Part shown: positions 731-37,032 of the stretch, in pieces
Position numbering within the stretch: position 1 is the stretch's first letter
How the letters are laid out: every line of letters begins with the position of its first letter
DNA from: a virus
Reading direction: 5' to 3' (one strand)
Virus record (IMG/VR): IMGVR_UViG_3300006805_000068
Span: 1 to 38,294 of that record
Length of the DNA: 38,294 nucleotides
Notes under the pieces: generated by a model
Told to the model about the DNA's origin: nothing
The model's input: only the letters and a program-made list of their open reading frames with translations
The model's database searches: none
Position numbers and translations under genes: made by a program

Positions 731-3700
731 TCAACTTTTTAAGAATTCAGCAGGGAAAGTATCACTAATCTGCAGCGGATCGCCGGTAATTAAGAAGTTT
801 TCGCTATTCCAAGTCTTATCGTAGTAAAACGCTGGTAGTTTGTTTATTGGGGACAAGCTAGATACTGTTAAATTAGCTAGATGAGTTCTATGAACTGCTG
901 TTCCATCTACCCCTCTGGTTAATCTGGATAAAGTATTGGTTTTGTAGTCAATATCAGCAAAGCGAATTTTCTCACCGTTAATCATAACAGTATCACCAAA
1001 ACGAATAGTTAATGCCAGTAAGTCTCCTTCAGATACATTTGAAGAAAGAACTAACAAGGTTGCACTATCTGACGTAATCAATACAGAGTCGCTTGCTGAT
1101 AATTCCGAAAGAGTACTAGTATTAAAGATACTAATTTGCTTGATTGAAGTAATAACATAAGCAATATGTACAACTATCTTGTTATTTTCCAATTGAGCAA
1201 CTGCATCAAGTTTCAATGTAGTTACCAATTTACTAGCATCCTTAACAACCATAGAATTTTGGGTTGTATACAGCGGTTTAGTTAACCAAGTTCGGGTTGT
1301 TGTATTTGCGCGATAAACATCACTAACTCCATTCTTGTCAACGATCATGCTATATGTCATTTCTTCCGGGGTAGCTGAAGGCATCATACTTGTTACAACA
1401 ATAGTTGAACCAAAAGTTACAGGAACCATTATATTTAGATAGTTGCCCGAGTTCATTCTCAAAAATGCAGTATCAACTCTTGCCCCGTTAACAGTAACAA
1501 ATAATCGGGTAGGATCAGTAATGTCCAGTTCAGGTTGAGTTAATTGAATAGTTGACTCTGCTTTCCAAACAAATCCACCAGAAACATAATTTTCAGTACT
1601 TGGCCCAATTACAGGATTTATAAGAGTTTCGTCAAGGAACAAGCTAATTGGATAGAATGTAGTACCTTCAAACTCATACGATGGTTCTAATTTAGCATAG
1701 AAGCTATTGTTTTGTAATTGCGAAGCTCCTACCAATCCATCTATAGTTAACTTATCACCTGTAATAAAGCCGGGGTCACTAGCAACAATAATAACTGCAG
1801 GGCTTCGCGAAGTATCCATATAGTATATCGGAGTTACTGAAAGAGTAGTTGACATATCAGTGACTAAAAATTGCTCTCTTGTATCATTGAACGTTGTTAC
1901 ATTAATGGTATCACCTGCAGATAATTCTATGGTTACTGTTAATGATTTAGCTGCACTATCAATAGTGTAATCTGTAGTTTCAATTAAGCGAAGTCCGTTT
2001 AATTCAACAATTGCGTGTAGACTATTGGTGCCGCCTATAAAGAATTCATTCAAATCAAACACTGTGGGGCCGGTAGAATATGTAAACACTTGTGTTTGCG
2101 GAATGCTGTACCCGTATTGTGTAATTACATCGTTTACAATTGTGCTACCCATCAATGCAAAACTTATATAAGTTGTAGCAGGATCAAACGCCTGATTAAA
2201 TGTAATGTTTGTATTACCTGTACTGTTTGGTAATAATGTATAGTCAGTTAAGTATGTTAGTAACTCACCATTTACATATACAACCGGATTACTTACTGAT
2301 GCGTTATATTTGTATAAAGTGTCAAAATAACTGAATCCAGTGCGAGCGTTAACTAACATCGGGAATGTGTCTGAACTTCCTCTAACAGTTTGATTACCGC
2401 CGCCTATCTCATATAACTCTAAGAAAATTACAGTGTTGCCTTCTAATGAAGAAAGTAAAGTAATAGTTTTACTATACCAATCAACTGAATATGCAACATT
2501 TTCCATTAATCTTGTTCCCAAATGAGTAGTTTGATCCATTGCATAAACTGCTATTGTAGTTGGAGTTGTTACAATACCATCAAAGCTAAACATGTTTGTA
2601 TAATTAGGAACAATTGTAGTTCCAATCATGTTGAATCCGCAGTGTTCGCCGTTAATAGGAGTCCACAGTGAACCCGGAGTAGATTTTATTGTCATTGATA
2701 TACAGTCATTAACTACACCGGCAACTAATTCTTCCGGACCGTAGCCAAACATAAATGCATCACCTTTAACTGCATAAGCAGTTTCTTCGGATGCAATGTA
2801 AGAATTGTCAACCCAAGTTGTTGCATTCTTGCTTTTTAAAATTGTTGCATGCTCACCAACTACAATAAATTCGTCGCCGTAATACGTAACCTTGTTGAGA
2901 TTTTCTTTTGTTATTGCAACAGTTTGATCCCACACTCTACCATCAAAACTATAAAGAATTGTACCATTGTCACCAATTAATACGTATTGACCTCTTGCAT
3001 AAATGCCATGAATTAAATTTGAAGTAATAACAGGACCATTTACAGTTGCTTCTACCCAGTTTCTTCCATTCGCTGAATAATAAATAACTCCATTGTTACC
3101 GGCAATTACATTCAAATCAGGCGATGCGAAAACTGTATTTAAATTGTCAGCTACAGTAAATGCCACTGGCAACCAAGATACTCCGTCTGAACTTAATAAC
3201 AATCTAGATACGTTTTCAATAACGGGTGAAGGGGAATCGGCCCCACTAATTACAGACTCACCGTTACCAACTGCAATATATCCAGCAAATCCGTTGTTTG
3301 CATAAGCAACTGCGCGTAATACGTTTGATAATCTGCTATCAAAATTAAATGCAACTGTCCATTCAACTGCATTGTTGCTGCTTAAAATATCAGAGCCTGC
3401 GCCAATAAATGTTTCATTTACATAAAGCATACTTTGTAAACTGCTATTTGGTGATTGCACTGAGGTTGAATCAAATCCTGCGCTACCAAAGCTGTCAACG
3501 TCAAACGGAGTAAACGCACCAACTGAAACCCAATTAATAGCGTCATAGCTTACTAACATTGGAGTATTGATATTTGTTGTTGAAACAACATAGAATGAAC
3601 CAGAATACGCAAGATCAGTAACACCTAAAACTTGACTACTTAGTTTCTTGAATGTCCAATTTACTCCATCGCCACTAGTAAGTACGACTGAATTTTCAGA

Positions 3701-6700
3701 GGAGTCACCGACTGCAACATACTTGTATCCATCAAAAATGATACCAGTTAAATTTATATCTTTTGGATAGAATCCGTTGTCTTTCAACACAGTGTCAATC
3801 GGAAGTTCTAACTCTGGATTGAAACTATTACCCAAATATGTTGCATTTGGATATTCAAGACCATCCATTAACATCGGTAAGTTTTTACCCGGCATGTTTA
3901 CATTTGGTTGATAGTAAGAAAATACTCTATCTAATGCATTTATTTGCGGATCATCACTGAAAATCTCAATCCATTTTGCATAATCAAAAACAGTGTCGCT
4001 ATTTGCTATAGTACAACGATAGATTTTATTATTATAGAGAGTAAATGAATCAGTTGAGAATCTATATGTAGGTCCACTTCCAATAGGCTCTGGCAAGAAT
4101 GCATAGTCACCTCTTTCAAACACAAACGGATTATTTACCGTGTCAGTTACAGGTAGCTTTAACGCCGGATCTTTGTAAAGTTTGAGTCTAGTGTCGCTTA
4201 TTGGATAAACATAGTATTGTTGAAAATCGTTAACCGCAACACCTTGCAATGAATAATACAAGATGCTGCCAAATTCTGCGTAGGTTACTGTTATAATTAA
4301 ATCATTTGCAGGACTTGCGCCGCCTAAGCTGGTGCCTGGTACTATTATTTTTTGACCAATAGAATATATTGAACCACCATCAACAAGTTGGATTGTATAA
4401 TTCTTTGACATTTTCGTTCCATCAAATCTTGGAGTTTGAACGATAATAATAGCACCTCCTAAACCCAAAGTAGGAGTAAACGTAACTGGTAATTTGTAAA
4501 AATATAATTGTCTTCCTTTTACATTACCTGCAGCGATTGAACTAGGAAAATAATTAACATCTACGACTACATTGTTAGATCCAGTTTCAGTGCTAGATGT
4601 TAATATTGGTAATACTGATCCTTGCAAACTTGCCCATCGTGTTTCCCACGGAGTTCCGGAATCTGGATCAGGATATTTAACTTTAAGAATTCCACCAAAA
4701 GAATCAACTTGAGTAACTGTTGCAGTACAATCAGCTACAGTGAATCTTACTACTCCTGTTTGAGTAAATGCATTAGTAAACAATAAGCTGTCAACTGGAA
4801 TACTATAATCGCTGATTGAATATAAGGTAAACGTATCACCTGTTTCGCGTTTAATATAAAAATTACTAGTCCCTAGAACACCAGCAGTTGCTAATTGCGG
4901 CATTCCAACTACGCCGCTGATATTTACCATAGTTCCGGTTACTAATTCATTTTCTAACTTAGTTGTTACTCTCGCAGGGACTGAATTAGTTACAGTTTGA
5001 ATTTCATATTCAAGTGTAAAGTCTGTGATTTTATCACCTTCTGCGTATTGAGTACCGGTACCGATGCCTGTAGTTTTAATTACTGGCTCAATAAACCAGT
5101 TACCATCCAATAGTAGATTATTTACATTAAAACTTGCACCGGTTCCTATCGCAGGAGAGATTGCAGTTCCTGAGATGTTTGAAAATTCAATAGCTTCCAT
5201 TAATTTTTCACCTGAACTTGCATCATTGTGCAGTGTGTTTAACACGCTTGAATAGTATTCACCAGAAACCCACTCAGTTACTTTTGGGTAATAGCTAGTT
5301 CTGTCAAATTTTAATTTTGTATTAATCTGTCTGACTGCAGCATTTGATGCAATAGGCAACAGTCTTGCAGTTACATTTAATGAATTACCTGTACTCACTG
5401 CACCCTGTATCATCACAATTGCATGTGATTTTGCAAGTGCGTCTGTTTTACTTACGTGTAGTGAGATATAATCTTTTTTCAGTGCAGATGAAGAACCTTT
5501 AACTGCAGCATAATAATATTTACCGCTAACTAGTCCAAGAATACCAGATCCGTTTGCAGTAAATTTAACTAAATCACCAGTTTTGATTTTACCAAGTTCA
5601 GCAGTTATAGTATATTCAATGTAGTTTATGTCAGTATCTGCAAATTCTACTGCAACCGAAGGAGCAACGATTAGCTCAGGTGTAATCGCGTAACCACTAC
5701 CCGGATTAATTACTGTTACCCCAATTACTTGTCCGGCTAGCATGATTGGTCGCAATTTTGCAACTGTTCTTGGTGCTGGATAGATGGCAGTATCTATATA
5801 AGCTGTAATAACAGGTGGGTCAATGTAATCTCTACCTGAGTTAAGTACGATTGCTCCTGGTAGATCCATATAAATTATTGAATTTTCTGCGTGATCTGAT
5901 ACAGGTGAGTCTTGTAATCCTCTTGATAATCCAAACAATATTCCGTTATCACGATCTACGTTTGAATAACCGATTATTTCTTGATCTATTCTAATTGTAC
6001 CCGATATTGGAAATCCAAATGCATTATTAACTTCAATTTGATTTGAAGTTAAGTACACATAACTCTTGACTCTAGTTATTTCAGAGGCAATGCTACCGGT
6101 TAAAGCAAGTCCGTAATTTTCAAACCAAGTTGCGTAATTTATATTAGTGGACCAAATATCATCCAAAGGTAAGAATTGGTCGTCACCTGCTGTACTAACA
6201 AATGTTAATTCAGGTGTCGTAAATCTTTCTAGCTTAGCGTTAAACATTGCAGGTAAATCAAAGTCAGTAACATTACTGTTATAAACTTCAGTGCGTGTAT
6301 ATCTTAGGCTGAACTCTTTAATGATAACGTGATATGGTTTAACTTCATTCAAGTAACCTTCTAAGAAAACTTCATCGTCACTTTGATATAAAGTAGTATC
6401 AGTTAGTTCACGCATAGTATGTTGAACATTCATGAAACTTGTTTTATTCAGCCAAGGCAAATAGTTTTGTGATTCAGTGCTTTCACCGGTAATGTATTCA
6501 AATAACAAAATTAAACTCTTGTTGCGATGTACTAACAAATCGCCGGTAAATACTTCTTCATTCAAGCCACGTATAATGTACATGGTTTCAGTTGAAGGAT
6601 AATTATCAAACATCATAGTATCAAAGAACTCGCTGCCAAATCCGCGATTAACCAAACTATAATCCCATAGTGAACTCTTGATTTGAATAGTACCTTGTTG

Positions 6701-9700
6701 AAGGCCAACTCTAATCCATTCACCCGAAGTGTACTTATAGATTTCACGCTTCCCGTCACTGTTGCTGAGTACACCAACAACCATATTCTCAACAGCATTA
6801 AGTTTTACTAAGTCATAATATTTTGGAACTTCTAGATCAGTTCTAGTGTTATTACTAAATCCAGCAGCGTACCAATAAACATATTCCCAGTAATCATTAG
6901 TATCAAAGTACTCACCCGATGTAGTAAACATGATTGGGGCGCCAGCTCCGGCAGTTGCAGTAACTCCCAAATTCAAGAAGCTTGGATTTTTGATTTCAGT
7001 AATTGGATACTGTAACAATACTCTATTTGCATAGTTACAGTAATTTTCTAACGCAGATAATCTATCAATAAAGAAACTTTGATTTGGTCTTTTTAATACA
7101 CCAGTTCTTAACTGACTTGGCAAATATGGATTAGGTAAAACTTGTCCTTGATTGTCAACTCCTGATAAGCTTTCTAGCATCTTTAGATACAAGTCTTGCG
7201 GATCAGTAATTGTGTTAACAGATGTAGGGAATCCAGTTAAGAAATCACCTGCAAAACCATCTCTGATAAGTTGGAATTGATTATGTACTGTATCGTCATT
7301 GTTACCTGATTTAAATCCAACGTGAACACTAGTTGTAGTTGAATTGATAAATTCGTTACAGTTATATAAACCAAACACATTCGGACTGAACGGTGCAAAG
7401 AAACTTATTCCCGAACCTTGAGGATTAGAAATATAAGACGCGATAACTGAATCAGTAAGAGTCTTTTCTTTTTTGTCAACGATAGTGTCAGTATTTCTTA
7501 CCCAATAATAATAACGGGTAACAACAGCTCCGGTATTATCTAAATCAAATGCAGTTGTGTAAGCATCCAAGTCGTATGGAGTGCCGGTACCTGCATAGTT
7601 CATTGGCATTACATCACTTTCAATCCATGTATAGATTGCAACAGTGCTGCCAGGGAATACGTTTGCCCAATATTCACTATTATAAACTACGTCATTTTGA
7701 TGATAATCAACAAATCGTGTATAGGTTGTGTCAAACCATAGTTTGCCAACGAAATTCTCAGCCCATACAATCTTGTTATTTCTTATTTCAGTGTTATATC
7801 CTGCTGGATCAATATTTGAGATAAAGTCTAAGTTCTCTCTGACTACACCAAACAATTTACCTTGTAGCGGATCAATATAATCTAACGAATCTAATTTTTC
7901 GTTAGTTGTGTTATCAAATAGCTGAATTGACTGTAGTTTATTAATATCAACTACTTGTTCAGAGGTACGATATATTGACCAGTTGGGTTGATTTTCAGCA
8001 TTTTGATATGCCGTTACACTACCATTAACTGTACCTGAATAGTAAGTTGGTGAGCCAACTACAACGGTGTAATCACTGAACGCCAATGTCTCACCGTAAT
8101 ATGGTCTTGGTCCAATTTGTGATATAGTATCATTAATTGTTTGAGCTAGTACAAACTTTCCAGTATTTGTTAAGCTTTCATTATATGCTGGTAAATAGTC
8201 AAACATATAAACTGCGCCAGCGTTGTCAAAATTGTCAACCCAAACAGTAAAATTATTATCAAATATAGTATCATTGGTATATACTTCGTCGTCAGTAAAA
8301 TCAAATGAAGTTGAAGTATATCTGATTCCAACTGGGGCGCTAACTACAAAAGAGTTATGCTCGTTATATTTTACAGTGTAACCAAATTGAGTAGCATTTT
8401 GTTGATTTATATCATGTAAAATCTGTGTCAATTTATATTCAACAATACCCAAATCTACTAAAACAGTTTTATCAAATACATTGATACTTAACTTATCATT
8501 AATGGGACTTAAATCTAAGTTAATCAATTGAATTATTAGTTTTGAATCAGTTGTTGCGCTAGCTTTTACATTAGTTACGTTTGCATTGTTAATTGCAGTT
8601 ACAGCACCATTGACAGTACCTGCAGGTAAAGTTACTGCATATCCGTTAATCAAGATGGTTGCTGCAGCAGTTAAGTTTACTGCAGTTTCACCAATAATGA
8701 TTCCGTATTTTTTACCACCATTGGTATAACGATACACACTTCCTTCAATATTAGATTCGCTAATATCAAAAGGTGCACCTACAATAAATTCGTTTGCGCT
8801 TGTGTTATTATCTATTGAGTTACCAAACTTAATTCCTACTCTTGGAGTAGCAGATTCAGTATAACCGCTTAATGTTTGAGTATTAATAAAGTCACTTGAG
8901 CTAACTTTGACAATATCCCCTGCATTAACCTGAACTTTTATACTAAGTTTTACAATATCAGTTAATGTAAACTGTGAACTTTGTAGTTCAACTCCGTTTA
9001 GTGTAACTGTTAACGTTGTTGCTGGTTGCCATGCTAATGTAAACACGGTTGATTGCCCCACCAAAGTGTTATAGCTATGCTCAAATATTTGGCAAGTTCT
9101 ATCAAACATATAAACAAAACCAGTGTTGGTGTAAGTTGAACTAAAGTCTTTTTCTGGTGTACCGACAAATAGTTTGCTACCATCATAATTAGTTGACAAT
9201 GAATAACCAAACTTATCATTTGATGCAAGATTTGAAACTGTTAACGTTTTGGTGAGCACAAATTCAAAAGTTGCAGTATAAACAGCAGTACCGGAGGTTA
9301 CATCAGTCGCGATTGCACTGTCCAAATATATCGTAGTACGATCAGTTGAACTTTCATATTTTGAAGTAACAACCAAATATGTTTTACCAGTGAGCATATT
9401 GCTGAAACTTACATTTGTGCCCGGGGTAAATGTTGCTGCATTCTCTCCTGCGATAACAAAACTATTATCGCCTGCTGCTATATTAACATCAGTATAAAGT
9501 TCTGTTGCAACAAGTGTAGGGTTATAATTACGTGAATAAACTAACACTTCATTACTTGCAGTTGCTGAAACAAACATCCATTTTGAATCACCGGACAATG
9601 TGATAGCGTTACCTACGAGCTTGGACGCAAATGTAATCTCTTGCTGAAGCGCAACTGTTTGTATTTTACTAGTTGATACAAGCGAGTATACACGAATGAT

Positions 9701-12700
9701 ACTTGCAACCGCAATATTGTTACTGTCTCTACCATTCTGAGGTTGAGTAATAACTAATGTGCTATTTGATTTTGCCATTGCTGCGCCGAAGCCTGCTGAC
9801 TTAACAAATGTATTGTCTAATGCAAATCTATTATTAAAGTGCGAGTATTGATAAACAACTCCTGCTTCGGCATCACCGACAAAATACCCTTGTCTTTTAT
9901 CGTAAACCATTGAGCTACCAAATGTCAATGTGCTTTCAGGTTTAGTTAATCCATCTAAATGTTTGTAGTTTATACTCTTTCTATAAACTGCCCAATCTCC
10001 GTTAACTCCATTATCAACCCATACTTTATTCTTGACAAATTCGCTGTCTAATAAAGCCAATGACTCAATATCTTTTGGTGTTGCAACACGTTGACTTTCA
10101 AACTTTGCTACAATTCCAGTTCCATTTGTTGTTTGAATACTAGCTGGCAGCGATAGACTGATTACAACGGAATTATTTCCGTTAACATTCAATACCTCGT
10201 ATAATCCATCAACTGTTGACCCAAAGTTTAAAATCATAATCAAGTCATCACTGACTAATCCATGCGGATTATCAAATAGCACAGTAACAGTACTATTAAG
10301 ATTATTGTTTACCCGCACAGCTTGAACTGGACTCTTTGAGAAAGTTACCGGAACCGGAGTATAAACATTCCAAGTACCTTTATGATCTGCTACCCAAACA
10401 TATTCATTCTTATATAGTTCTGATATTGGAGCAGAAGTATCATTCAATCCCATGAATGTAAATGCATTCATTGCTACATCATTGAAATTCACATAGCCTG
10501 CTGTTGGCAATTGAATCAATTCGCTGTTACTGCGTACTGGTAGAATATCAGTATTTGCAATCGGTTGATTATAATTTGTTAATGAGTATAACGGAACAAC
10601 TTGCATTAAGCCTGCAGGTGTTGAATCATCAACAATTCCAACGATGTTTGGATTTCCGCGCAATTGTTTTTCGTCTAGTTTGAATTCAATAAAGTTTTGA
10701 TTTAACACACCACCATACTGACCTGTTCTAATTGCCCAATTTTCGTATGCAGTAAATTGTAGTGCTCCGGTAGATAGAGTAATTCCTTCAACTGAAGTTA
10801 AACTATTCTTGCTTCCCTTTTCTGCAATAAATGATTTGTAAAAACCAACTTGCGAGATTTCACTTATATTAGCGGATGCTAAATAATTTCTTGGTCTGTA
10901 ACCAATTAAAGAGAAACTTAAAATATCAGAATCTGAATCTAAATTAGATAAAGTTGAGTCATAAAATAATGAAGCTTCGTATGCTCTGCTACTTGCATTT
11001 GGTAGTAGCCCCTTTTGTATTTTTTCATAAGGGGTCTTAACCCAATACTGTTGTTGGAAAGAGTCACTAGGTTGAATAATTGAATTAGCTAACCAATAGT
11101 CATTCTTGAACTTTACGATAATTCCTTTAGTGTACTTTGTGTTAACCGCCCACTCTTGTATGTTATCTTGATTTAGTATAAAGCCCTGTGTGTCAAGGGT
11201 ACCAGTCCATTCGGCGGTTTTTCTGCCCTTTACCATCATTCTATTTTGACGTAATCCGGTGCTTGGATCAAATAACAGATCATTGAATATTGTAGTGTTA
11301 TCAAAAACAATCGCATGCTCTATGTTACTTAAGTTAACAGTAAAATAAGAAATCGCGTCACCGTCATTTAATGGTGCAGCAGTAAAGATTGTACCATCAC
11401 GATTGATAGCCATGTCTTTTAACTGAATCGGGATTAGATCCTGATTTAGTATATAGTTTTGATTTTGAATTGTAAGTGGTTGAACAATGCTACTTTCTTT
11501 GTCAATAACTAATTGTTTAGCAATCGGGTTTACATTTATAACTGCGCCGACTTCCCATCCAGATTGAATCCAGTAAAGTACTTCAGAAATAATCTGATTC
11601 CAATCAATTACAATATTGTTTTCTATGTTCTCAAACTTTATACCTTGTTCGGTCAAATATCTTCCGTAGTTTGCAATAAACTCAGCTAATGCTTGCGCAG
11701 AATTAAACTCAGTTCCATAAGGAACAATGATTTCAGTTTTAGTAAAGTTCTTGCTTACAAATACTGTTAGATCGGATACGGTTATGTTTCTATAGTTTCC
11801 GTTTATCAGTGGACTAAATGTTGTAAAATATATTTTGTTTTGGCTATTACCATAAACTTTAAATCCATTTTCAGTTTTTTGTACAATTACTCCACTATAC
11901 TGAATATTGCTGAACGGTTGATTCTCGTGCAATAATACTGAATAGCTTTCGTTTGGAACCATTAATGATTTTGTATTATTAGTAGAGGTTGATGTTCTAT
12001 CTGAATATGAACGTTCCACATAAAAGTTTAATAAATCTTTGTCACTAAAGCCAGCTAATCGGTATGTTAATCTAACATCCAAATTGCTTAATAAAGAGTT
12101 TAACTTGTCTGTCCCAGTTGCACCGGTGCTTTGAACATAATCAACGATCCAATTTAAATAACTGTGTTGGGCTTTGCCACTACCATAGTCAACACTGCTC
12201 ACAGTTGACAATCTATATCGGTCATTAACCAAATACTGGTTGAACTCAGCATTGAATTTATATGTGTCTAAGTTTTGACCAAGAGCAAAGAATTTTGCAG
12301 GTTTGCATAACGCAAGTATCTTTACTAAATCAAATGCCCATGTACTACTTTTTAGATAGCTATACTCTGCTGGTCCACAGTCTCCCACTTTCCAATCTCT
12401 ACTAAAGCTTACTGAATCATAGCTACCGACTACTGCATTCATTGGTCCAGCAAGTTTACCTTCACTGTCAACTGGTAATACATTTAATAATCCAGGTCTT
12501 GCTTTATGCGGTAATATTCTTGAATCACCACCGTTGTAGTCAAAGCCAAGTTCCATATCATTCCACAGCAACAAGTTGTCGCTTGTATACGGAGCTTCAC
12601 CGTATCTAGTTTCCCACCAAAGTGGCTTGCTTACATATCCTATCATTTCCCAAGGGGTTGAATCAGGTGTAACAGTGTCATAGTACCATCTGTAAATACC

Positions 12701-15700
12701 TTTCCAGTTACCTTGTTTAAAATTAGTAGTATCTAATTTGCTTGCTGTTTGATTGTAATTCCATGTGTACTGATTATCTGTCAAATAATATTGCGGTTTG
12801 TATTCTACTCTGTTTTTTCCTACCCAGTTCAAAAAGAATATTGAGTAAAGACCCATAATATCAGAGTACGAATATGAAGTTGTTCTAAACTGTCCAGGGA
12901 ATACATCATCAGCAAGAACAGGGAGTGCAGCATCTACTTTTATATTGTTATAGATTCTTAATTCAAATTCAAACAACGCACGATCTCTAAAATCTTCCAA
13001 GAAGCCTTCGTTATAGCTACCGTATAGTTTAGTAAGAGAACCGTCATGGCCTTTAATAAAGTAAGTAGGTGACAGATAATTAGTTTCAAGTACAATTTCA
13101 GGAACTGCTGCTGGCAAGAAACCTAACTTTGTAGGTGTATTTGGAACAAAGCTTCCGTAAGTTTGATTATATTCATTGATTACAATATGATCACCTAACT
13201 GCAAACTTGCAAATATAGTTACTTTTGGATCAGTACTGCTAACAATATAATCCTTACCTCTTACAAGTTGAATTGTACGTGTAACACCCTGAACTGTGCG
13301 AATCAAATAAACTAAGACGCTATCATAGTTTGCTGAAGTAAAGTCATAAATCTTACTCAACGAATAAAAAACATTGCTTGCTGCTGAATTATATCTATAG
13401 GTGTTGCTTGTTTGAGCACTTCTATTTGGTAGCATATCTGACCAAAAGAATGAATTACTTTCGCTCTTATACGCAGCAATTTGATTCAATGCATCATCTA
13501 AGATGCTTGCGTTTGATTGCAACACATCATAGCTAGTTTTGTTAATGGTATCTAGCAACAAAGTTTTAAACTTAACATACTCGTCACCGCTATAGGTAAG
13601 TGAATCAATTAAGTTATAATTTTTATTACGCAAGAAGGCACCCATCAATGGCAGTGGTGCGCTACTTTGAATAATTTTATTACCAAACGGAACAAGATTA
13701 CCCAAGTCTCTAAAATTATTAGGGCCGAAAATTGTTCCTTGAATTTGGTTACTATTAACACAAATACTTTGATAGTGACCTCTTACATCACCTAAATTCA
13801 AAGTGCTAATCTGTGTATTGAACGGATTGTTTGCTAAGTTACTAGGTATAGTATAATAAGCACCACTTGTGCTTGCAACATCACTGTAAATCAATATTTG
13901 AATTTGAGTATCTGTTGTGGGATTGGTGTTCAACGTTATAGTAGTTGCAGAATCAGTAACCACAGCGATATACTGTGACTGAGCAAGTACAGTTGAATTT
14001 ACGATGACTCTAATTGGTTGCCAATTAGTTGAGCCGCTTGCCTTTGCAGGAACATCGCACAAGAATTCAGCATTGTTTAATGACGCTGGATTGTACGAAA
14101 AGTCAAATGCTTGATACTGAAAGCTTTCTCCTGCAGCAGTTTGCCAACCTAATTGTCTAGAGAAGTCTGTTCTGTTATTGAAAAGATGCGGGTATCCAAT
14201 GCTAACTTTTTCAGTAACTGACTGGTTGTTTACTACGTAATTAAATGTGTTAGCGTTAAGTGAAACAGAAAATCCAATATCACCGATATTATTTACAGTG
14301 TTATACTTTAACGGAAATCCCAATACTATATCATCGGAACCTGTTCCAATTGCATATTCAAATAGTGTACAACCAAGAAAGTCACTACTTTGATAGTAAT
14401 CAGTATCGCTTAAACTTAATCCGTTTTGATCAAAAATATCAAATAAAGGTGGCTGATTTACATTTATTTTTTGCTGTGCTTCTTTCCAATTTGACCCGTC
14501 AAAGTAAAAGCTTTTCCCTTTGTTCTGATCACCTTCAAAAATAACAACTTGATCATCAAATGTAACATCCCCGTTAACTGTTTTGGCTAACGAAATTACC
14601 GGAGCGGATGAACCTGTAATTGACACAAAATTTACTGAATATATTTTGTTACGAACCGATAGATTTTTATCGTTTGCAAAAATTATAGTGCTACCTTCAG
14701 TTAATTGAAACTGTGATCCATCAGGGAAATATGAGGTCGTGCCGGATACTTGATTAAATGCATCAGTTGATGTAGTATCAATAAATGACACTTTACCTTT
14801 GCCAACAGTGCCAGAATCAAATAATTTTATGTTTGGGTAGAATTCAATAATAGGACGTTTTGCTCTGCTTGCATCACTATTCAACACAGCAAGGACTGAT
14901 GCAGTAGAATTATGCTTGACTACTTCAGTAAGAACTCCAACGTGGAACCAACGATTGCTTCGTGACCATGCATTTTTACTGTTTGCATTTCTGCTAACGG
15001 TAATATAATCTTTAAGAACAGGAACATTTACAGTTGATCCAAAGTTTGAAGTATCGTATGGATCGATATCGTATGCACTATAAACTTGTTGTGTAAATTT
15101 TTCAGGGACTACATAATCTAAAACTGAGTGCAATGTTATACTAGAGCCAACACCTTCAACATAGTATTGTCCTGTTTGATAACTAGCAGGGAAAATGTTT
15201 CCAGAAAATGTAACTTTCAAGCCATTAGTAAATGTAACCCCATTTGGACTTACATATGTTTTCTTGCCTAGCACTTCTGAATCAAGATCAATAAAATTAT
15301 TTGTTTGACCTTCTATTAATTTAATAATACCAAACTTACTTGGATTTGTTCCATCCTGATAATACAATGTACTGATCGGTGCCGTTACTGTAGGAATTAT
15401 AGAAATAACACCATATGGATTTTTTACAAAATCAGTTGTGCTAAACAAAGTTCCATACGAAACGGTAATCTTTTCATTAGTTGGGATTGATCCTATTTCT
15501 GAAAGAATTATTACTGGATCACCTGGGTTTGTGCCGTCATTATAAACAATACGATAGAATTTAGTTGTTACATCAGTTTGATCAACCTCATCAAAACTTA
15601 CTATAGTGTTGATGTCACCGTCAAATAATTCATCATCATATAGTCTAGTTATGTTTCCAACTGTTGCCGACGGGAAACCATAAAACATCAAAGACTTATT

Positions 15701-16564
15701 GTTAAGAATTGTAATGCCATCAATGTTTTGAACTTCACTTAATCTTTTTCCGTGAATTTTATCAAACGGTACAGTTGCAACCAAGTCTACTCTATTATTG
15801 CCCGGATATACATCTGAGTTTTGCGCATCAACTGCCGGTACTTGGAATGTAATTGTTTCATTGTTTTGCGCGCCATTTGCAGTAACACCAAATATAGAAC
15901 GAGTGCTTATGTTAGGGCGGTTTGGATCAGTTCCTGTAATACCAGGAATAGTTTGAATCCAAAAATTTCCAAATTGTTTTGTGCTGAACGTATATTTGCC
16001 ACCGCGTAATAAGGTAAGAGTTGGGTTTAATCCTTCTACTACTTCATTGTCTGCAGTGAAAGTAAATGCGTTAGTAATATCTTGACTCACATTATAATCT
16101 ACAAGGTAGTCAAGAATACTAGGTCTTACTTCAACTGGATCAGGTCCGTTTGGTAACCAATAATACTGATTAAAGTTGATGAGTTTATCTAAATCAGTAA
16201 AACTGTCCCATGAATAAAATTGATTTGAGAACAGGCTAGAATTTTTAGCAACAGGACCACCCTCTAGTTTTAGAGAGTCTAGCATTTCAGGATAAGTTAT
16301 AAAATCACTTGCAGTACTAGTTTGTTCTTTAGTGAAAACAACCGCAGGCTCTAATTGATAATTTGTTCTGGCTTTTGTTGGCTCTGTGATATAACTATCA
16401 TTTGAATTAATCCCGTATTCAAATTGGCGACCAATATAACCCTGCATGCGAGTTATATTTGGTTGCTGCACTAATTGATCTAATGTAGCAGTTAAAAATT
16501 GCTGATTAGGGGTGGTTCTGAATATATCAGGAAGAAATTCAAGTGTTCTAACTTTTGTTACCAT
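731..16564 (-). CDS. giant baseplate/tail structural protein in the gp7 position (5277 aa)
   Basis: This uninterrupted reading frame begins 11 bases after the gp6 stop. It occupies the place of T4 gene 7 (wedge initiator, about 1030 aa in T4) but is about five times longer. The N-terminus (LEFLPDIFRTTPNQQFLTA, then FYSWDSFTDLDKLINFNQYY) matches my recollection of very large virion proteins in T4-like cyanophages. Visible modules are: FG-GAP-like repeats at about 2210-2860 (FGxS blocks followed by GxVYxF or GxVYxY); seven S-x-[DN]-[GA]-x-x-W Asp-box-like motifs at about 4285-4585; several copies of a roughly 40-residue unit of the form VxxNGxxL...DYT...GDxIxV near 2515, 4761 and 4851; and two related modules near 3500 and the C-terminus (IDQEIIGY / INGEKIRF, then LSRG or LTRG, then a His). 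The protein probably combines wedge scaffold with surface-exposed binding domains. Identity with gp7 rests on gene order only. Confidence 0.85.
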   Translation of the reverse strand: MVTKVRTLEFLPDIFRTTPNQQFLTATLDQLVQQPNITRMQGYIGRQFEYGINSNDSYITEPTKARTNYQLEPAVVFTKEQTSTASDFITYPEMLDSLKLEGGPVAKNSSLFSNQFYSWDSFTDLDKLINFNQYYWLPNGPDPVEVRPSILDYLVDYNVSQDITNAFTFTADNEVVEGLNPTLTLLRGGKYTFSTKQFGNFWIQTIPGITGTDPNRPNISTRSIFGVTANGAQNNETITFQVPAVDAQNSDVYPGNNRVDLVATVPFDKIHGKRLSEVQNIDGITILNNKSLMFYGFPSATVGNITRLYDDELFDGDINTIVSFDEVDQTDVTTKFYRIVYNDGTNPGDPVIILSEIGSIPTNEKITVSYGTLFSTTDFVKNPYGVISIIPTVTAPISTLYYQDGTNPSKFGIIKLIEGQTNNFIDLDSEVLGKKTYVSPNGVTFTNGLKVTFSGNIFPASYQTGQYYVEGVGSSITLHSVLDYVVPEKFTQQVYSAYDIDPYDTSNFGSTVNVPVLKDYITVSRNANSKNAWSRSNRWFHVGVLTEVVKHNSTASVLAVLNSDASRAKRPIIEFYPNIKLFDSGTVGKGKVSFIDTTSTDAFNQVSGTTSYFPDGSQFQLTEGSTIIFANDKNLSVRNKIYSVNFVSITGSSAPVISLAKTVNGDVTFDDQVVIFEGDQNKGKSFYFDGSNWKEAQQKINVNQPPLFDIFDQNGLSLSDTDYYQSSDFLGCTLFEYAIGTGSDDIVLGFPLKYNTVNNIGDIGFSVSLNANTFNYVVNNQSVTEKVSIGYPHLFNNRTDFSRQLGWQTAAGESFQYQAFDFSYNPASLNNAEFLCDVPAKASGSTNWQPIRVIVNSTVLAQSQYIAVVTDSATTITLNTNPTTDTQIQILIYSDVASTSGAYYTIPSNLANNPFNTQISTLNLGDVRGHYQSICVNSNQIQGTIFGPNNFRDLGNLVPFGNKIIQSSAPLPLMGAFLRNKNYNLIDSLTYSGDEYVKFKTLLLDTINKTSYDVLQSNASILDDALNQIAAYKSESNSFFWSDMLPNRSAQTSNTYRYNSAASNVFYSLSKIYDFTSANYDSVLVYLIRTVQGVTRTIQLVRGKDYIVSSTDPKVTIFASLQLGDHIVINEYNQTYGSFVPNTPTKLGFLPAAVPEIVLETNYLSPTYFIKGHDGSLTKLYGSYNEGFLEDFRDRALFEFELRIYNNIKVDAALPVLADDVFPGQFRTTSYSYSDIMGLYSIFFLNWVGKNRVEYKPQYYLTDNQYTWNYNQTASKLDTTNFKQGNWKGIYRWYYDTVTPDSTPWEMIGYVSKPLWWETRYGEAPYTSDNLLLWNDMELGFDYNGGDSRILPHKARPGLLNVLPVDSEGKLAGPMNAVVGSYDSVSFSRDWKVGDCGPAEYSYLKSSTWAFDLVKILALCKPAKFFALGQNLDTYKFNAEFNQYLVNDRYRLSTVSSVDYGSGKAQHSYLNWIVDYVQSTGATGTDKLNSLLSNLDVRLTYRLAGFSDKDLLNFYVERSYSDRTSTSTNNTKSLMVPNESYSVLLHENQPFSNIQYSGVIVQKTENGFKVYGNSQNKIYFTTFSPLINGNYRNITVSDLTVFVSKNFTKTEIIVPYGTEFNSAQALAEFIANYGRYLTEQGIKFENIENNIVIDWNQIISEVLYWIQSGWEVGAVINVNPIAKQLVIDKESSIVQPLTIQNQNYILNQDLIPIQLKDMAINRDGTIFTAAPLNDGDAISYFTVNLSNIEHAIVFDNTTIFNDLLFDPSTGLRQNRMMVKGRKTAEWTGTLDTQGFILNQDNIQEWAVNTKYTKGIIVKFKNDYWLANSIIQPSDSFQQQYWVKTPYEKIQKGLLPNASSRAYEASLFYDSTLSNLDSDSDILSFSLIGYRPRNYLASANISEISQVGFYKSFIAEKGSKNSLTSVEGITLSTGALQFTAYENWAIRTGQYGGVLNQNFIEFKLDEKQLRGNPNIVGIVDDSTPAGLMQVVPLYSLTNYNQPIANTDILPVRSNSELIQLPTAGYVNFNDVAMNAFTFMGLNDTSAPISELYKNEYVWVADHKGTWNVYTPVPVTFSKSPVQAVRVNNNLNSTVTVLFDNPHGLVSDDLIMILNFGSTVDGLYEVLNVNGNNSVVISLSLPASIQTTNGTGIVAKFESQRVATPKDIESLALLDSEFVKNKVWVDNGVNGDWAVYRKSINYKHLDGLTKPESTLTFGSSMVYDKRQGYFVGDAEAGVVYQYSHFNNRFALDNTFVKSAGFGAAMAKSNSTLVITQPQNGRDSNNIAVASIIRVYSLVSTSKIQTVALQQEITFASKLVGNAITLSGDSKWMFVSATASNEVLVYSRNYNPTLVATELYTDVNIAAGDNSFVIAGENAATFTPGTNVSFSNMLTGKTYLVVTSKYESSTDRTTIYLDSAIATDVTSGTAVYTATFEFVLTKTLTVSNLASNDKFGYSLSTNYDGSKLFVGTPEKDFSSTYTNTGFVYMFDRTCQIFEHSYNTLVGQSTVFTLAWQPATTLTVTLNGVELQSSQFTLTDIVKLSIKVQVNAGDIVKVSSSDFINTQTLSGYTESATPRVGIKFGNSIDNNTSANEFIVGAPFDISESNIEGSVYRYTNGGKKYGIIIGETAVNLTAAATILINGYAVTLPAGTVNGAVTAINNANVTNVKASATTDSKLIIQLINLDLSPINDKLSINVFDKTVLVDLGIVEYKLTQILHDINQQNATQFGYTVKYNEHNSFVVSAPVGIRYTSTSFDFTDDEVYTNDTIFDNNFTVWVDNFDNAGAVYMFDYLPAYNESLTNTGKFVLAQTINDTISQIGPRPYYGETLAFSDYTVVVGSPTYYSGTVNGSVTAYQNAENQPNWSIYRTSEQVVDINKLQSIQLFDNTTNEKLDSLDYIDPLQGKLFGVVRENLDFISNIDPAGYNTEIRNNKIVWAENFVGKLWFDTTYTRFVDYHQNDVVYNSEYWANVFPGSTVAIYTWIESDVMPMNYAGTGTPYDLDAYTTAFDLDNTGAVVTRYYYWVRNTDTIVDKKEKTLTDSVIASYISNPQGSGISFFAPFSPNVFGLYNCNEFINSTTTSVHVGFKSGNNDDTVHNQFQLIRDGFAGDFLTGFPTSVNTITDPQDLYLKMLESLSGVDNQGQVLPNPYLPSQLRTGVLKRPNQSFFIDRLSALENYCNYANRVLLQYPITEIKNPSFLNLGVTATAGAGAPIMFTTSGEYFDTNDYWEYVYWYAAGFSNNTRTDLEVPKYYDLVKLNAVENMVVGVLSNSDGKREIYKYTSGEWIRVGLQQGTIQIKSSLWDYSLVNRGFGSEFFDTMMFDNYPSTETMYIIRGLNEEVFTGDLLVHRNKSLILLFEYITGESTESQNYLPWLNKTSFMNVQHTMRELTDTTLYQSDDEVFLEGYLNEVKPYHVIIKEFSLRYTRTEVYNSNVTDFDLPAMFNAKLERFTTPELTFVSTAGDDQFLPLDDIWSTNINYATWFENYGLALTGSIASEITRVKSYVYLTSNQIEVNNAFGFPISGTIRIDQEIIGYSNVDRDNGILFGLSRGLQDSPVSDHAENSIIYMDLPGAIVLNSGRDYIDPPVITAYIDTAIYPAPRTVAKLRPIMLAGQVIGVTVINPGSGYAITPELIVAPSVAVEFADTDINYIEYTITAELGKIKTGDLVKFTANGSGILGLVSGKYYYAAVKGSSSALKKDYISLHVSKTDALAKSHAIVMIQGAVSTGNSLNVTARLLPIASNAAVRQINTKLKFDRTSYYPKVTEWVSGEYYSSVLNTLHNDASSGEKLMEAIEFSNISGTAISPAIGTGASFNVNNLLLDGNWFIEPVIKTTGIGTGTQYAEGDKITDFTLEYEIQTVTNSVPARVTTKLENELVTGTMVNISGVVGMPQLATAGVLGTSNFYIKRETGDTFTLYSISDYSIPVDSLLFTNAFTQTGVVRFTVADCTATVTQVDSFGGILKVKYPDPDSGTPWETRWASLQGSVLPILTSSTETGSNNVVVDVNYFPSSIAAGNVKGRQLYFYKLPVTFTPTLGLGGAIIIVQTPRFDGTKMSKNYTIQLVDGGSIYSIGQKIIVPGTSLGGASPANDLIITVTYAEFGSILYYSLQGVAVNDFQQYYVYPISDTRLKLYKDPALKLPVTDTVNNPFVFERGDYAFLPEPIGSGPTYRFSTDSFTLYNNKIYRCTIANSDTVFDYAKWIEIFSDDPQINALDRVFSYYQPNVNMPGKNLPMLMDGLEYPNATYLGNSFNPELELPIDTVLKDNGFYPKDINLTGIIFDGYKYVAVGDSSENSVVLTSGDGVNWTFKKLSSQVLGVTDLAYSGSFYVVSTTNINTPMLVSYDAINWVSVGAFTPFDVDSFGSAGFDSTSVQSPNSSLQSMLYVNETFIGAGSDILSSNNAVEWTVAFNFDSRLSNVLRAVAYANNGFAGYIAVGNGESVISGADSPSPVIENVSRLLLSSDGVSWLPVAFTVADNLNTVFASPDLNVIAGNNGVIYYSANGRNWVEATVNGPVITSNLIHGIYARGQYVLIGDNGTILYSFDGRVWDQTVAITKENLNKVTYYGDEFIVVGEHATILKSKNATTWVDNSYIASEETAYAVKGDAFMFGYGPEELVAGVVNDCISMTIKSTPGSLWTPINGEHCGFNMIGTTIVPNYTNMFSFDGIVTTPTTIAVYAMDQTTHLGTRLMENVAYSVDWYSKTITLLSSLEGNTVIFLELYEIGGGNQTVRGSSDTFPMLVNARTGFSYFDTLYKYNASVSNPVVYVNGELLTYLTDYTLLPNSTGNTNITFNQAFDPATTYISFALMGSTIVNDVITQYGYSIPQTQVFTYSTGPTVFDLNEFFIGGTNSLHAIVELNGLRLIETTDYTIDSAAKSLTVTIELSAGDTINVTTFNDTREQFLVTDMSTTLSVTPIYYMDTSRSPAVIIVASDPGFITGDKLTIDGLVGASQLQNNSFYAKLEPSYEFEGTTFYPISLFLDETLINPVIGPSTENYVSGGFVWKAESTIQLTQPELDITDPTRLFVTVNGARVDTAFLRMNSGNYLNIMVPVTFGSTIVVTSMMPSATPEEMTYSMIVDKNGVSDVYRANTTTRTWLTKPLYTTQNSMVVKDASKLVTTLKLDAVAQLENNKIVVHIAYVITSIKQISIFNTSTLSELSASDSVLITSDSATLLVLSSNVSEGDLLALTIRFGDTVMINGEKIRFADIDYKTNTLSRLTRGVDGTAVHRTHLANLTVSSLSPINKLPAFYYDKTWNSENFLITGDPLQISDTFPAEFLKS

Positions 16565-33142: not shown

Positions 33143-33159
33143 ACAACCAGCAGTAGAAA

Positions 33160-33665
33160 CACACAATTAGTTTGGTCGGGGATGCTCGACCCTCCTTGAG
33201 TCAGCCGAGGTAAGGCTCGTTGCCGACGGATTCTGGAGAAAGCCTGAGCGATACTTTATTGTATCGGCGTTAATAACTCAGGGAATACCGACAGGGCAAT
33301 CGAGCAATGAGCGAACCCTGAATGAGTCTATATAATACTTTGTCTTGAAAAATATAGAACATGCGTTGCTGAAAGAGTAGGAACATTCCAATTCTGCCTT
33401 TCAACTACAGTCCCAGCAAACTTTACAGAGCAACCGGTAGCAGATAATAGGAACACACTAGCGTGTATAATACCTAATTATTTGGGGAACAGACAACAAA
33501 GGCGGACGGGCAGGGCAAGTCTAAATTTTGGTAGTGCTAATTTAGCACTACCATGGCTTCTAAGCGGCAATGTAGTTAAACTTCAACAACATATAATTAA
33601 ATAAAGTCCTTAGAAGTATGAGCAATGCGAATACTTCTTAAGGAAGATGACTGAAGGTCATCTAG
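33160..33665. ncRNA. candidate large structured RNA between convergent genes
   Basis: The 566 bases between the PDDEXK gene stop and the gp51-like stop carry no convincing ORF on either strand. Inverted repeats include CCTGAG/CTCAGG (33243-33248, 33277-33282) enclosing CGATAC/GTATCG; long-range GCTCGA/TCGAGC (33184-33189, 33300-33305), an alternative to the local GGTCG/CGACC hairpin; GAAAG/CTTTC (33371-33402); an 11-bp hairpin at 33529-33553; a 12-bp hairpin at 33608-33643; and a 7-bp hairpin at 33645-33663. AACTACA (33405-33411) can pair with TGTAGTT (33571-33577). GAGCAATGAGCGA (33302-33314) is nearly repeated as GAGCAATGCGA in a hairpin loop (33620-33630). Bases 33171-33320 contain 80 G/C of 150, high for this AT-rich genome. 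Size and setting recall GOLLD and ROOL phage RNAs, but no consensus was compared. The strand cannot be decided. Confidence 0.45.
33608..33643 (-). terminator. 12-bp hairpin, possible terminator of the gp26/gp51 transcript
   Basis: The arms CCTTAGAAGTAT and ATACTTCTTAAGG pair with one bulged base around an 11-base loop. On the minus strand the hairpin is followed by ACTTTATTTAATT, a loose U-rich tract. It lies about 65 bases beyond the gp51-like stop. It may instead be one helix of the structured RNA; the long loop and broken U-tract make termination uncertain. Confidence 0.3.
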
Positions 33666-33708: not shown

Positions 33709-33885
33709 TTAGAAGAATGGCATTTGTGTTTTCTTAGTAGTTTCTAAGTTCTCTTCGATGATCTCATTTGCTGACGTTATCTCGTCCGGGCTCATGTTTA
33801 ATACATCTACGTAACTTATACCACCGCGCATATACCAAGCTATTCTTTGTGCGTTCTTTTTGATAGCTTTGGTGTCTCTCTCCAT
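33709..33885 (-). CDS. small gp51-like tail/baseplate assembly protein, likely also made as a gp26 frameshift extension
   Basis: From the ATG at 33885 the frame encodes 58 residues: MERDTKAIKKNAQRIAWYMR, then GGISYVDVLNMSPDEI and a C-terminus ETTKKTQMPFF. Small proteins of this form (WYMRGG or WHMRG early, PFF or PLL at the end) follow gp26 in many T4-like phages and are usually named gp51, a hub assembly factor. T4 gp51 itself is far longer (249), so the name is by position and recollection. The same frame is open 18 codons further upstream (RLRLLYLDSPGITKLVEG) to a slippery heptamer at the end of gp26, so an extended version fused to gp26 is expected. Ribosome-site support for the internal ATG is weak. 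A late tail-assembly role is inferred. Confidence 0.6.
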   Translation of the reverse strand: MERDTKAIKKNAQRIAWYMRGGISYVDVLNMSPDEITSANEIIEENLETTKKTQMPFF

Positions 33886-33932
33886 GCCTTCAACCAGCTT
33901 CGTTATACCCGGAGAGTCCAGGTATAGAAGCC

Positions 33933-34763
33933 TTAGCCGAAAAAATCGCTTACATTCAATGTAAACACTTGATCGTATTCATGAGTGCAGCTTGCACATG
34001 TGATATGCAATGGCTTTGTTTGAGTTGATTCTCTTAGTGAGACACTGCGATTTTTGATTGTTTCAAACACCCGCTTGTCTGTATTTTGTAAGAAATCAAG
34101 AATGTATTCTTTTTCAGTTACACGAGTTTCCGGAGTCTCAATATATTCTACGGTGCTTGCTAACACTTGAATAGTTGAGATTGAAATGACTTTTAGAACT
34201 TCAGAAATTTTAGCATCTTTTTCAGTTCCGTTTTCCATTGCGTTTAAGTTCATCATTAGCTTTTGAATTTCAAACTGTTTGATTGAATTGTCAGTGACTT
34301 CTTTGTAGTTTAATGCTCTGAATTTGATCTTTAAGTCATTTAATTCAGTTACATTTACATAGTCACCAGGTACGAAATTGTTCAGTATGATACTAAGATT
34401 GACACCATATTTACCTTCTTCTTCGCACTTTGGGCATGTGGTTTCAATCTCCATTTCACCACCGTTAGTTGCCATTCTGATTGCAACTAAGATTGCATCT
34501 AAGTCAGTACTGCTTATTGCCCATGGGTTCTTGATTGCAGGAATACAGCTTTTGATAATATCAGCAACTGCGCTGCCGTTGTACAAGCTATCTGGTGTTT
34601 TGCTAGTAATCTCATCAATTGCTGTCATTGGAAAAACAGGAAGCTCACCGGTTTCTGGCATTACCAGTACGGATTGATCGTATCCCACACCTTTGCTAGG
34701 TAATTTTAGATAGACGCCGGGTCTGCGAAAATATTGTTTTAATGGGTTATGTTCAATGGTCAT
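33933..34763 (-). CDS. gp26: baseplate hub assembly protein gp26
   Basis: The 276-residue product shows the T4 gp26 family pattern: YLKLPSKGVGYD near the start, then ELPVFPMTAIDEITSKTPDS, LYNGSAVADIIKSCIPAIKN, PW, and a DLDAILVAIRMATNGGEMEI block. It has two Cys pairs, CPKC near 110 and CASC near 256, which together could bind zinc. It is longer than T4 gp26 (208). The ATG has a good AGGAG site. The C-terminus FFG is encoded by the slippery sequence that leads into the gp51-like frame. The gene is divergent from the tape-measure genes, with a shared promoter region of 70 bases. A tail-assembly chaperone role is plausible from this setting; in T4 it is described as a hub component or assembly factor. 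Confidence 0.88.
   Translation of the reverse strand: MTIEHNPLKQYFRRPGVYLKLPSKGVGYDQSVLVMPETGELPVFPMTAIDEITSKTPDSLYNGSAVADIIKSCIPAIKNPWAISSTDLDAILVAIRMATNGGEMEIETTCPKCEEEGKYGVNLSIILNNFVPGDYVNVTELNDLKIKFRALNYKEVTDNSIKQFEIQKLMMNLNAMENGTEKDAKISEVLKVISISTIQVLASTVEYIETPETRVTEKEYILDFLQNTDKRVFETIKNRSVSLRESTQTKPLHITCASCTHEYDQVFTLNVSDFFG
33939..33945 (-). promoter_or_regulatory. -1 programmed frameshift site T TTT TTC
   Basis: Near the end of gp26 the codons are GAT TTT TTC GGC TAA, so the heptamer T TTT TTC is in the correct phase (X XXY YYZ) for a -1 slip, two codons before the stop. Slipping continues with CGG CTA AGG in the frame of the gp51-like gene and adds 76 residues, giving a fusion of about 351 residues. 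The arrangement parallels G/GT tail chaperones of other phages. I cannot confirm a downstream stimulatory structure by eye. Confidence 0.6.
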
Positions 34764-34833: not shown

Positions 34834-37032
34834 ATGCCTACAAATTCATCATTTGATGCTAATGAAATGACCGAACAGCAAATCCGTGATCTTGCCGAAA
34901 GACTTACGGAATCAGCTGGCGCCATACGCGGTGGCAGTTCAAGATTGGGCGGGGCATTAGGAGATTTAGCAAACAGTCAAACTGACTCTGCGAACAGATT
35001 ATATGAAGTCAGTCGTGGCCTTGTTGGGATGGGTCAAGGCTCTATCCAGTTTATCAAAGCAGCAGCGGACGGTAGTTCCAAACTAGACAAGTATGGCGCT
35101 GGTATTGAAACTGCATTTGATGGATTAGGCGATGTGGTTTCTGCGTTCGGCCCAGTTGGAATGGTTATTGGTGCCTTAATTAAAGCTGTTGGTACGGTAG
35201 CTAAAACTGTAGCTGAACGTGATCAAATTTATCTTGATGCATATGATTCATTAGCTGAATTTAACGGTGCAACTGGGTTTACTGCGGATGAGTTTAGAAC
35301 CCGCGCACTTAGCTTGTTACTAGGTGATAAATCACTTGATAAATTGATCAAGCCAATGACAGGGCTTGGTACAGATATTATGGCTTTGGGTGCTACTGCA
35401 GGTGATGCCCAAAAGAAATTTATAGATATTGCTGATATATCAGTAGAGACTAGAGCGCAATATAGCCGATTGGGTATTAATCAAGAACAATTAGCTGAAA
35501 TGCAAGCTGATTATGTTAAAACAATGGCAAGATCAGGGGCATTGCGTTCAGTAGGTGACAAGAACTTACAAAAAGAATCATTAAAATATGCTGACAGTTT
35601 GATTGCGCAAGCTGCTCTGTCTGGTATGTCAATTGCTCAGCAAAAAGATGCTAACGAAGCAGCTCTTAATGATTATAGATTTCAAGCTACACTAAGAGAA
35701 GCTTACAATAACAAGCAAGATGACGTTGCAAAACGTATGGTTTCTGTTGAAAAGCGGTTTGCTGGACTATTTGGAGATCCAAAATTAAGTGAAGGTATCA
35801 GAGAATTTCTTTCTGATGGCGTTGGCAATGTAACTGAAGGCGGCAGGGCATTACGTGCGATATCCGGTGATGCTATAGGTGAATGGACTCGGCAGTACAA
35901 AGCTGGACAACTTGGTGAAGATGAATACCTATCACTTATAAGAGATCAGTATAAAAAATTCATTGATCTAAATGGCGGTACACTTAAAGCTAATGAAGAA
36001 CTTCAACGCACCTACGGAATAAGCGCACAAACACTCGCTGCATTAGGAAAAGCATTAGGTGAAGGTACCAAAGATCAAACTAAACAAGATATTGAAGATA
36101 GAAAAAACTTAAAAACTGATAAACTTCTTGAAGCTCGTAATGCTAATTTAGATGCGTCCTCTGCAACACAAAAAGCATTTGACGCCTTCATTAATTTAAT
36201 AAGCGGACCTATCAACACTGTATTTGTTGCTGTGCTGCATGGATTACAAGCATTAGCTGAGGGTTTTGTTAGTGTATTGGCTAGACTAGGAATAATTCCA
36301 GAAGAAATGGAATTTGCATTTAAGTCAAGAGATGAACTAGATAAACTTACAAAAAATTATACAGAAAAAATAGCTACCCTGTCAAAAGAACTTTCAGCTA
36401 ATCCAATGGCTGGGTATATGATTACTGAAGGACCAGATGCAGGGACTACTTATGGTGCTGCTGATGAAAAACGAATAGATGATTTAAAACGTCGGCTAGA
36501 AATGGTTGAACGCCTATCAAAATTAAAAGCTGGTATGAGTGGAGGAACGGCACCGGTGGCACCTACAGCAGCACCACCAGCTGCAACTTCGGGGACTAGA
36601 CAAGCAGCACCTAGTACCGCTTCAACTTTTGGAAAACCTACAAACACACCTGCTCCTAATGCTCAACAGTATGCAAAAGGCGGAATCACCGGCGGATCAA
36701 CTTCAGGTCACGTTGGTTTGATGCATGGGATGGAAGCAGTTGTTCCCCTACCAGACGGCAAATCTATTCCAGTTAATATTAACATTCCTCAATTAACTGA
36801 AAAGTTGATTAATCCTTTATTGGATACCGGTAATTTAGCTAGCCTAATTGAACGATACACTAATGCTCTTACTCAAGCAAAACCAACAGTTACACAAGCT
36901 GCTATCATGCAAGAAGCAACAACTAACTTTAGTTTTACTAAATCAATTTCTGACAGTTTAGACACTCTTTTAGATGGAATGAAAAAGAATACTGATTTAC
37001 AAAGTGAATTATTACACTATGTTAAGAGATAA
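34834..37032 (+). CDS. tape-measure-type tail protein (first of two)
   Basis: The 732-residue product is mainly helical. It has a hydrophobic stretch near 97-125 (FGPVGMVIGALIKAVGTVAK), a second near 455-485 (INTVFVAVLHGLQALAEGF), and a Pro/Ala/Thr-rich linker near 570-610. A C-terminal block GGITGGSTSGHVGLMHGMEA, then VVPLPDGKSIPV, is typical of tape-measure proteins. Tape measures fix tail length and are handled by chaperones such as gp26/gp51, which lie divergently next door. The gene starts 30 bases after a late box, and 2 bases separate its stop from the next start. Part of it resembles the next gene. In T4 the counterpart would be gp29 (590 aa); equivalence is inferred, not seen as a clear match. 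Confidence 0.7.
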   Translation: MPTNSSFDANEMTEQQIRDLAERLTESAGAIRGGSSRLGGALGDLANSQTDSANRLYEVSRGLVGMGQGSIQFIKAAADGSSKLDKYGAGIETAFDGLGDVVSAFGPVGMVIGALIKAVGTVAKTVAERDQIYLDAYDSLAEFNGATGFTADEFRTRALSLLLGDKSLDKLIKPMTGLGTDIMALGATAGDAQKKFIDIADISVETRAQYSRLGINQEQLAEMQADYVKTMARSGALRSVGDKNLQKESLKYADSLIAQAALSGMSIAQQKDANEAALNDYRFQATLREAYNNKQDDVAKRMVSVEKRFAGLFGDPKLSEGIREFLSDGVGNVTEGGRALRAISGDAIGEWTRQYKAGQLGEDEYLSLIRDQYKKFIDLNGGTLKANEELQRTYGISAQTLAALGKALGEGTKDQTKQDIEDRKNLKTDKLLEARNANLDASSATQKAFDAFINLISGPINTVFVAVLHGLQALAEGFVSVLARLGIIPEEMEFAFKSRDELDKLTKNYTEKIATLSKELSANPMAGYMITEGPDAGTTYGAADEKRIDDLKRRLEMVERLSKLKAGMSGGTAPVAPTAAPPAATSGTRQAAPSTASTFGKPTNTPAPNAQQYAKGGITGGSTSGHVGLMHGMEAVVPLPDGKSIPVNINIPQLTEKLINPLLDTGNLASLIERYTNALTQAKPTVTQAAIMQEATTNFSFTKSISDSLDTLLDGMKKNTDLQSELLHYVKR

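Follow-up and report, generated by a model that had tools for sequence, protein, structure and literature searches.

The window, by which we mean the whole 38,294-nucleotide stretch of viral DNA analysed here, carries on its minus strand what we regard, with a probability of roughly 0.9, as the tail-chaperone (TAC) gene of a T4-type jumbo phage, whose short and long products are made by programmed -1 frameshifting. Most ribosomes would terminate at the TAA closing the gp26-like frame and release a short form of 276 aa (gp26, TAC-N), while a fraction of them, aided by a hairpin 6 nt downstream, would slip back by one base on the heptamer T TTT TTC and go on to complete a long form of 351 aa (TAC-NC), which has at its C-terminus an additional helical domain corresponding to the C-terminal part of T4 gp51. 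If G and GT of lambda are taken as the model, the two forms together may coat the tape-measure protein and deliver it during assembly of the tail tube. The occurrence of slippage, its rate and the chaperone role of the products are what we infer from the following features of the window.

33933-34763, minus strand: gp26-like ORF encoding the predicted short form, TAC-N (PF12322 and phrog_150 profile matches; AlphaFold model with pLDDT 87.6)
33945-33939, minus strand: slippery heptamer T TTT TTC in the phase X XXY YYZ (direct reading, and relatives)
33935-33933, minus strand: 0-frame stop codon TAA, end of the short form (direct reading)
33709-33939, minus strand: -1 extension, the predicted C-terminal domain of the long form TAC-NC (76 sense codons at 33939-33712, then TAA at 33711-33709)
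33932-33896, minus strand: bulged hairpin (7 bp + 7 bp) that begins 6 nt past the heptamer, probable pausing element
34834-37032, plus strand: candidate tape-measure protein of 732 aa (weak match to the tape-measure family phrog_1272, E 0.006; RaK2 ORF088, E 2e-5)
37035 to beyond 38294, plus strand: second candidate tape-measure gene, paralogous to the preceding one and running off the window (BLASTP between the two, E 2e-17)

A preceding sequence-only reading of this DNA had pointed to an in-phase T TTT TTC near the gp26 stop, to a -1 frame open from there for 76 codons and ending in PFF, and to products of 276 and 351 residues, all of which is borne out by direct reading of both frames. The 0-frame ORF (34763 down to 33933) encodes 276 aa with the C-terminus ...NVSDFFG, a single Gly codon separates the heptamer from the TAA, and the -1 frame continues as RLRLLYLDSPG...TQMPFF up to its own TAA; termination without a slip is thus predicted to yield the 276-aa protein and a -1 slip the 351-aa fusion. 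As expected of a frameshift site, an in-phase slippery heptamer lies upstream of the 0-frame stop.

How widely is this arrangement conserved? A tblastn search with the gp26-like protein returned 63 phage records, of which the 60 listed have 26-34% identity, mostly from giant phages; the same search with the -1 peptide alone matched only the two nearest phages, Phosso and Atu_ph07. The heptamer followed by an overlapping open -1 frame was found in 18/18 loci, i.e. in the window and in 17 reference phages, in which the distance from the heptamer to the 0-frame stop is 10-40 nt and the -1 peptides mostly start with FFR. It is likewise common to the window protein's relatives in IMG/VR, all 76 of those that could be scored, and to 85/85 further IMG/VR loci retrieved with the proteins of S-PM2 (a cyanophage), RaK2 and KVP40, and it is present in all four of the genomes read directly (S-PM2, P-SSM2, HTVC008M and KVP40). 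After deduplication, the set comprises 128 distinct loci from jumbo phages, cyanophages, a pelagiphage and vibriophage KVP40, and every one of these complete relatives has a heptamer in the same phase and then an open -1 frame; across relatives the spacing to the stop ranges from 7 to 40 nt and the heptamer itself stays constant, save that T TTT TTT replaces T TTT TTC in three loci (XacN1, CM1 and HTVC008M). The suggestion that the site might be conserved across T4-like phages thus proved correct for all marine T4-like and jumbo phages examined.

Conservation of this kind is hard to ascribe to codon usage. Phe-Phe pairs in the window's own genes are mostly encoded by TTC TTT, and the probability of meeting T TTT TTC given Phe-Phe is only ~0.074 in these genes; because this is the expectation per Phe-Phe, an invariant T TTT TTC is not a product of chance. 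The window's genes contain three more T TTT TTY sites in phase (two T TTT TTC and one T TTT TTT), and the -1 frames that follow them stay open for just 2-6 codons. A run of 76 open codons arose in dinucleotide-shuffled versions of the 3' segment with P = 0.003.

The -1 frame downstream of the heptamer, besides being open, is under purifying selection and evolves as a protein, with a dN/dS of 0.22 in the window's clade as against 1.22 and 2.51 for the other two frames. Its relatives share the motif FFR..LL...WYMRGG.SYEDxLNMS..ER...TTKK..PFF, and the extension is predicted to fold into a small, helical domain (pLDDT 82). Family searches restricted to the -1 peptide were uninformative; the unnamed family phrog_18291 matched 8 of 25 members.

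If the extension is translated, where would ribosomes enter it? Most database records treat gp51 as a separate small gene, a separate ORF being annotated in P-SSM2, S-PM2, KVP40, Munch, CBB, 121Q and others, which would imply that it has a start of its own, reached by reinitiation or at an internal ATG, and that the T run is incidental; in many cyanophages codon 5 of the -1 frame is indeed an ATG. However, the first possible start falls at codon 3, 5, 8, 10, 13, 14, 20, 38 and so on, or is absent, and hence is not conserved, and the -1 frames of Paride and PA5oct are devoid of ATG, GTG and TTG altogether. Moreover, the part of the -1 frame ahead of the window's first ATG, which translation from that codon would leave out, is itself under purifying selection in the window's clade (dN/dS 0.38), and the heptamer is invariant where 0.074 per Phe-Phe would be expected. 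There is also little room for a start further upstream: a -1-frame stop directly precedes the heptamer in 39/128 loci and lies no more than three codons 5' of it in 60, and a single locus has an ATG, GTG or TTG able to include the conserved FFR. A separate gene with its own start is therefore very improbable as an account of the family. It is also conceivable that two routes operate together, with frameshifting producing the long form and an internal start releasing a free C-terminal domain in some cyanophages; the first start indeed lies five codons past the beginning of the heptamer in 29/128 loci, mainly cyanophages, but a start at that position is absent from the window and from most jumbo phages, and this combination is most unlikely. 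Finally, an indel introduced during sequencing or assembly, plausible at first sight given an error-prone six-T homopolymer in a metagenomic virus record, would have split one ORF without any recoding, a notion with next to no probability that is refuted by isolates whose genomes come from many laboratories (RaK2, GAP32, 121Q, KVP40, P-SSM2 and S-PM2), which share the layout and have their 0-frame stops at differing distances. It is conservation, then, that leads us to reject both the own-start and the assembly-error readings and to retain programmed -1 frameshifting.

Slippage of this type would be expected to rely on a stimulator, for which either a hairpin 5-9 nt downstream of the heptamer or a Shine-Dalgarno (SD)-like element upstream of it was accepted. 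In the window's clade, a covarying hairpin begins 6 nt downstream, its stem joining alignment columns 14-27 with 35-50 and being paired in 81.5% of cells; double changes number 33 cells against 11.4 in shuffles, and the covariation score of 0.277 compares with 0.212 +/- 0.011 in shuffles and with at most 0.147 in slid controls. Over the hairpin region the fold z averages -1.9 (-0.5 in a control window), and synonymous change is reduced (pS 0.31 versus 0.54). RNAalifold run on the same window-clade alignment predicted no consensus hairpin, for which reason the hairpin rests on the count made for this named helix, the fold z and the lowered pS. An upstream SD stimulator was also considered for the window's clade and was rejected, with a mean dG of -0.04 versus -1.44 in controls. 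The IMG/VR cyanophage loci, by contrast, have an SD-like GAGGG, an anti-SD match, 5' of the heptamer (-6.8 versus -2.0 kcal/mol in controls). The two lineages thus seem to lean on different stimulators for one and the same slip, the window's clade on a hairpin and the cyanophages on GAGGG.

To which family does the gene belong? The gp26-like ORF matches PF12322 (T4_baseplate) with E 1.8e-19 and 70.7 bits, well above the gathering cut-off of 24.5, and phrog_150 (baseplate hub) with E 4e-21; judged by these profiles, it is a member of the T4-type gp26/gp51 (PF12322) family. Both T4 gp26 (208 aa) and T4 gp51 (249 aa) match PF12322 and phrog_150 as well, and gp51 runs on into phrog_634, a baseplate hub assembly catalyst family that also matches the -1 ORF following gp26 in cyanophages, HTVC008M and KVP40. 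On this profile evidence, gp26 and gp51 of T4 are paralogues of one family, gp51 being the in-frame long form. The cyanophage -1 peptide aligns with the C-terminus of T4 gp51 at an hhalign probability of 94.9 (E 4.7e-8), and the jumbo-clade peptide aligns weakly with the cyanophage one (E 3.6e-4, probability 37). Since direct profile comparison of the jumbo-clade peptide with T4 gp51 was not significant, homology of the jumbo-clade extension to gp51 is claimed only by way of the cyanophages; in its location and its motif, the extension agrees with a gp51-type C-terminal domain. The proposal that gp26 and gp51 form the T4-like counterpart of G and GT, expressed by -1 frameshifting, is supported by the heptamer and the open frame, which are found throughout; the link to gp51 is indirect, and chaperoning of the tape measure is a probable rather than an observed role.

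T4 and its near relatives encode the Phe-Phe of gp26 as TTC TTT and have no heptamer, so that the simplest reading of the sequences would be that T4 encodes the short form and the long form in two genes that have diverged, and that a single gene with a frameshift serves the remaining groups examined. The likeness of the small KVP40 ORF to the gp51 C-terminus is already noted in records of that phage, and in the PA5oct record the upstream neighbours of gp26 carry an MS note and gp26 does not. Cyanophage and vibriophage gp51 have been described as short of ~200 N-terminal residues in a paper whose main text does not bring up frameshifting (Sullivan et al. 2010; PMC3037559), and T4 gp26 and gp51 have been listed as hub assembly chaperones, with gp51 absent from the virion (PMC3004832). 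Structural comparison of the gp26 model with the PDB by Foldseek gave nothing significant, the TAC of HK97 (2ob9) appearing at E 4.1 only, and the matches in BFVD were to gp26-like and uncharacterised phage proteins. Gp26-like folds, mostly in longer proteins, were seen there in Erwinia phages Special G and phiEaH2 and in Ralstonia phages RSF1, RP12 and phiRSL1; going by these models, the Erwinia and Ralstonia giant-phage proteins may possibly be chaperone candidates too.

The chaperone gene is transcribed divergently from the tandem paralogues at 34834-37032 and 37035 to beyond 38294. That it diverges from two genes of tape-measure type had been proposed from the letters alone, and both the divergence and the paralogy (E 2e-17) stand; their identity as tape-measure genes is only weakly supported, the phrog_1272 match having an E of 0.006. 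The first of the two occupies the position of the 'virion structural protein' that adjoins the portal gene in RaK2-like phages. Because this neighbour only weakly resembles tape-measure families and RaK2 ORF088, we infer, and do not claim as observed, that the TAC forms act on a tape-measure protein. In KVP40, the gene order is tail tube duplicate, 26, 51 and a 656-aa ORF, which resembles the lambda-like order V-G-GT-H.

Two further features of the window were observed. The non-coding stretch at 33150-33560, between a RusA-like gene and the point where the -1 ORF ends, is strongly structured (fold z -3.5) and has homologous DNA in 54 related loci, at ~70% identity in the best matches. An alignment of 33 sequences folds on the plus strand at -60.1 kcal/mol, against a mean of -0.9 after column shuffling, with double changes in 35 of 62 pairs, and on the minus strand at -45.5; no Rfam match was found for this stretch, which seems to be a conserved phage RNA of ~400 nt, so far undescribed. 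Elsewhere, a single minus-strand ORF of 5277 aa (731-16564) lies upstream of a series of further large ORFs in the same orientation.

We lean, with some reserve, towards a broader scenario in which -1 frameshifting would be the ancestral TAC route of the whole T4-like supergroup, giant phages included, and coliphage T4 would be the exception, in which a duplication gave rise to 26 (short) and 51 (long). In the same scenario, the giant-phage chaperone gene would have been uncoupled from the tape-measure gene by divergent transcription, leaving the ratio of short to long form to be set by frameshift efficiency alone.

Reportedly, the abstract by Vladimirov and colleagues describes several T4-like groups as having retained frameshifting, with genes 26 and 51 serving in T4. 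The likeness to lambda G/GT, drawn by analogy, lies in a short and a long form that would arise by a -1 slip shortly before the short frame ends, within the tail gene region. Lambda slips at G GGA AAG, as opposed to T TTT TTC in the window, and the gene order in the window's clade is not G-GT-H. As for T4, its gp51 likewise consists of a gp26-type domain plus a C-terminal extension, the latter homologous to the cyanophage -1 ORFs; T4 differs in having two separate, divergent genes and a gp26 devoid of the heptamer.

Closest to the present case are other T4-like phages. Vladimirov, Gautam & Davidson 2022 (Virology 566:9-15, doi 10.1016/j.virol.2021.11.003) identified T4-like TAC genes; a later paper (PMC12846349) cites this work for -1 frameshift signals of the poly-T kind in the TAC-N genes of T4-like phages, and the PRFect paper (PMC10885494) cites it for the statement that some T4-like phages have a short gene and a longer fusion gene. 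Because T4-like chaperones were reported there, the mechanism is already known for T4-like phages, and what is gained here is scope and annotation. The window adds a jumbo-phage clade to known TAC frameshifting: no annotated jumbo-phage record examined joins both frames, the extension being either missing or given as a hypothetical ORF that begins further downstream, and corrected annotation would provide phages of the RaK2, 121Q, PA5oct, Atu_ph07 and SCTP-2 types with a full tail-chaperone pair. It would also give substance to the need of T4 for gp26 as well as gp51, which have long figured among the hub assembly proteins with an ill-defined function. The window gene belongs to the same family as the T4-like TACs of Vladimirov et al. 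(PF12322/phrog_150), but diverges from its candidate tape-measure genes and has a downstream hairpin as its stimulator, without an upstream SD-like element. The TACs of Pakpunavirus and Vandenendeviridae (PMC12846349) are similar in their unannotated -1 extension, which is open in all genomes, and in their conserved poly-T motif, although that motif is GTTTTT and the phage families are different ones.
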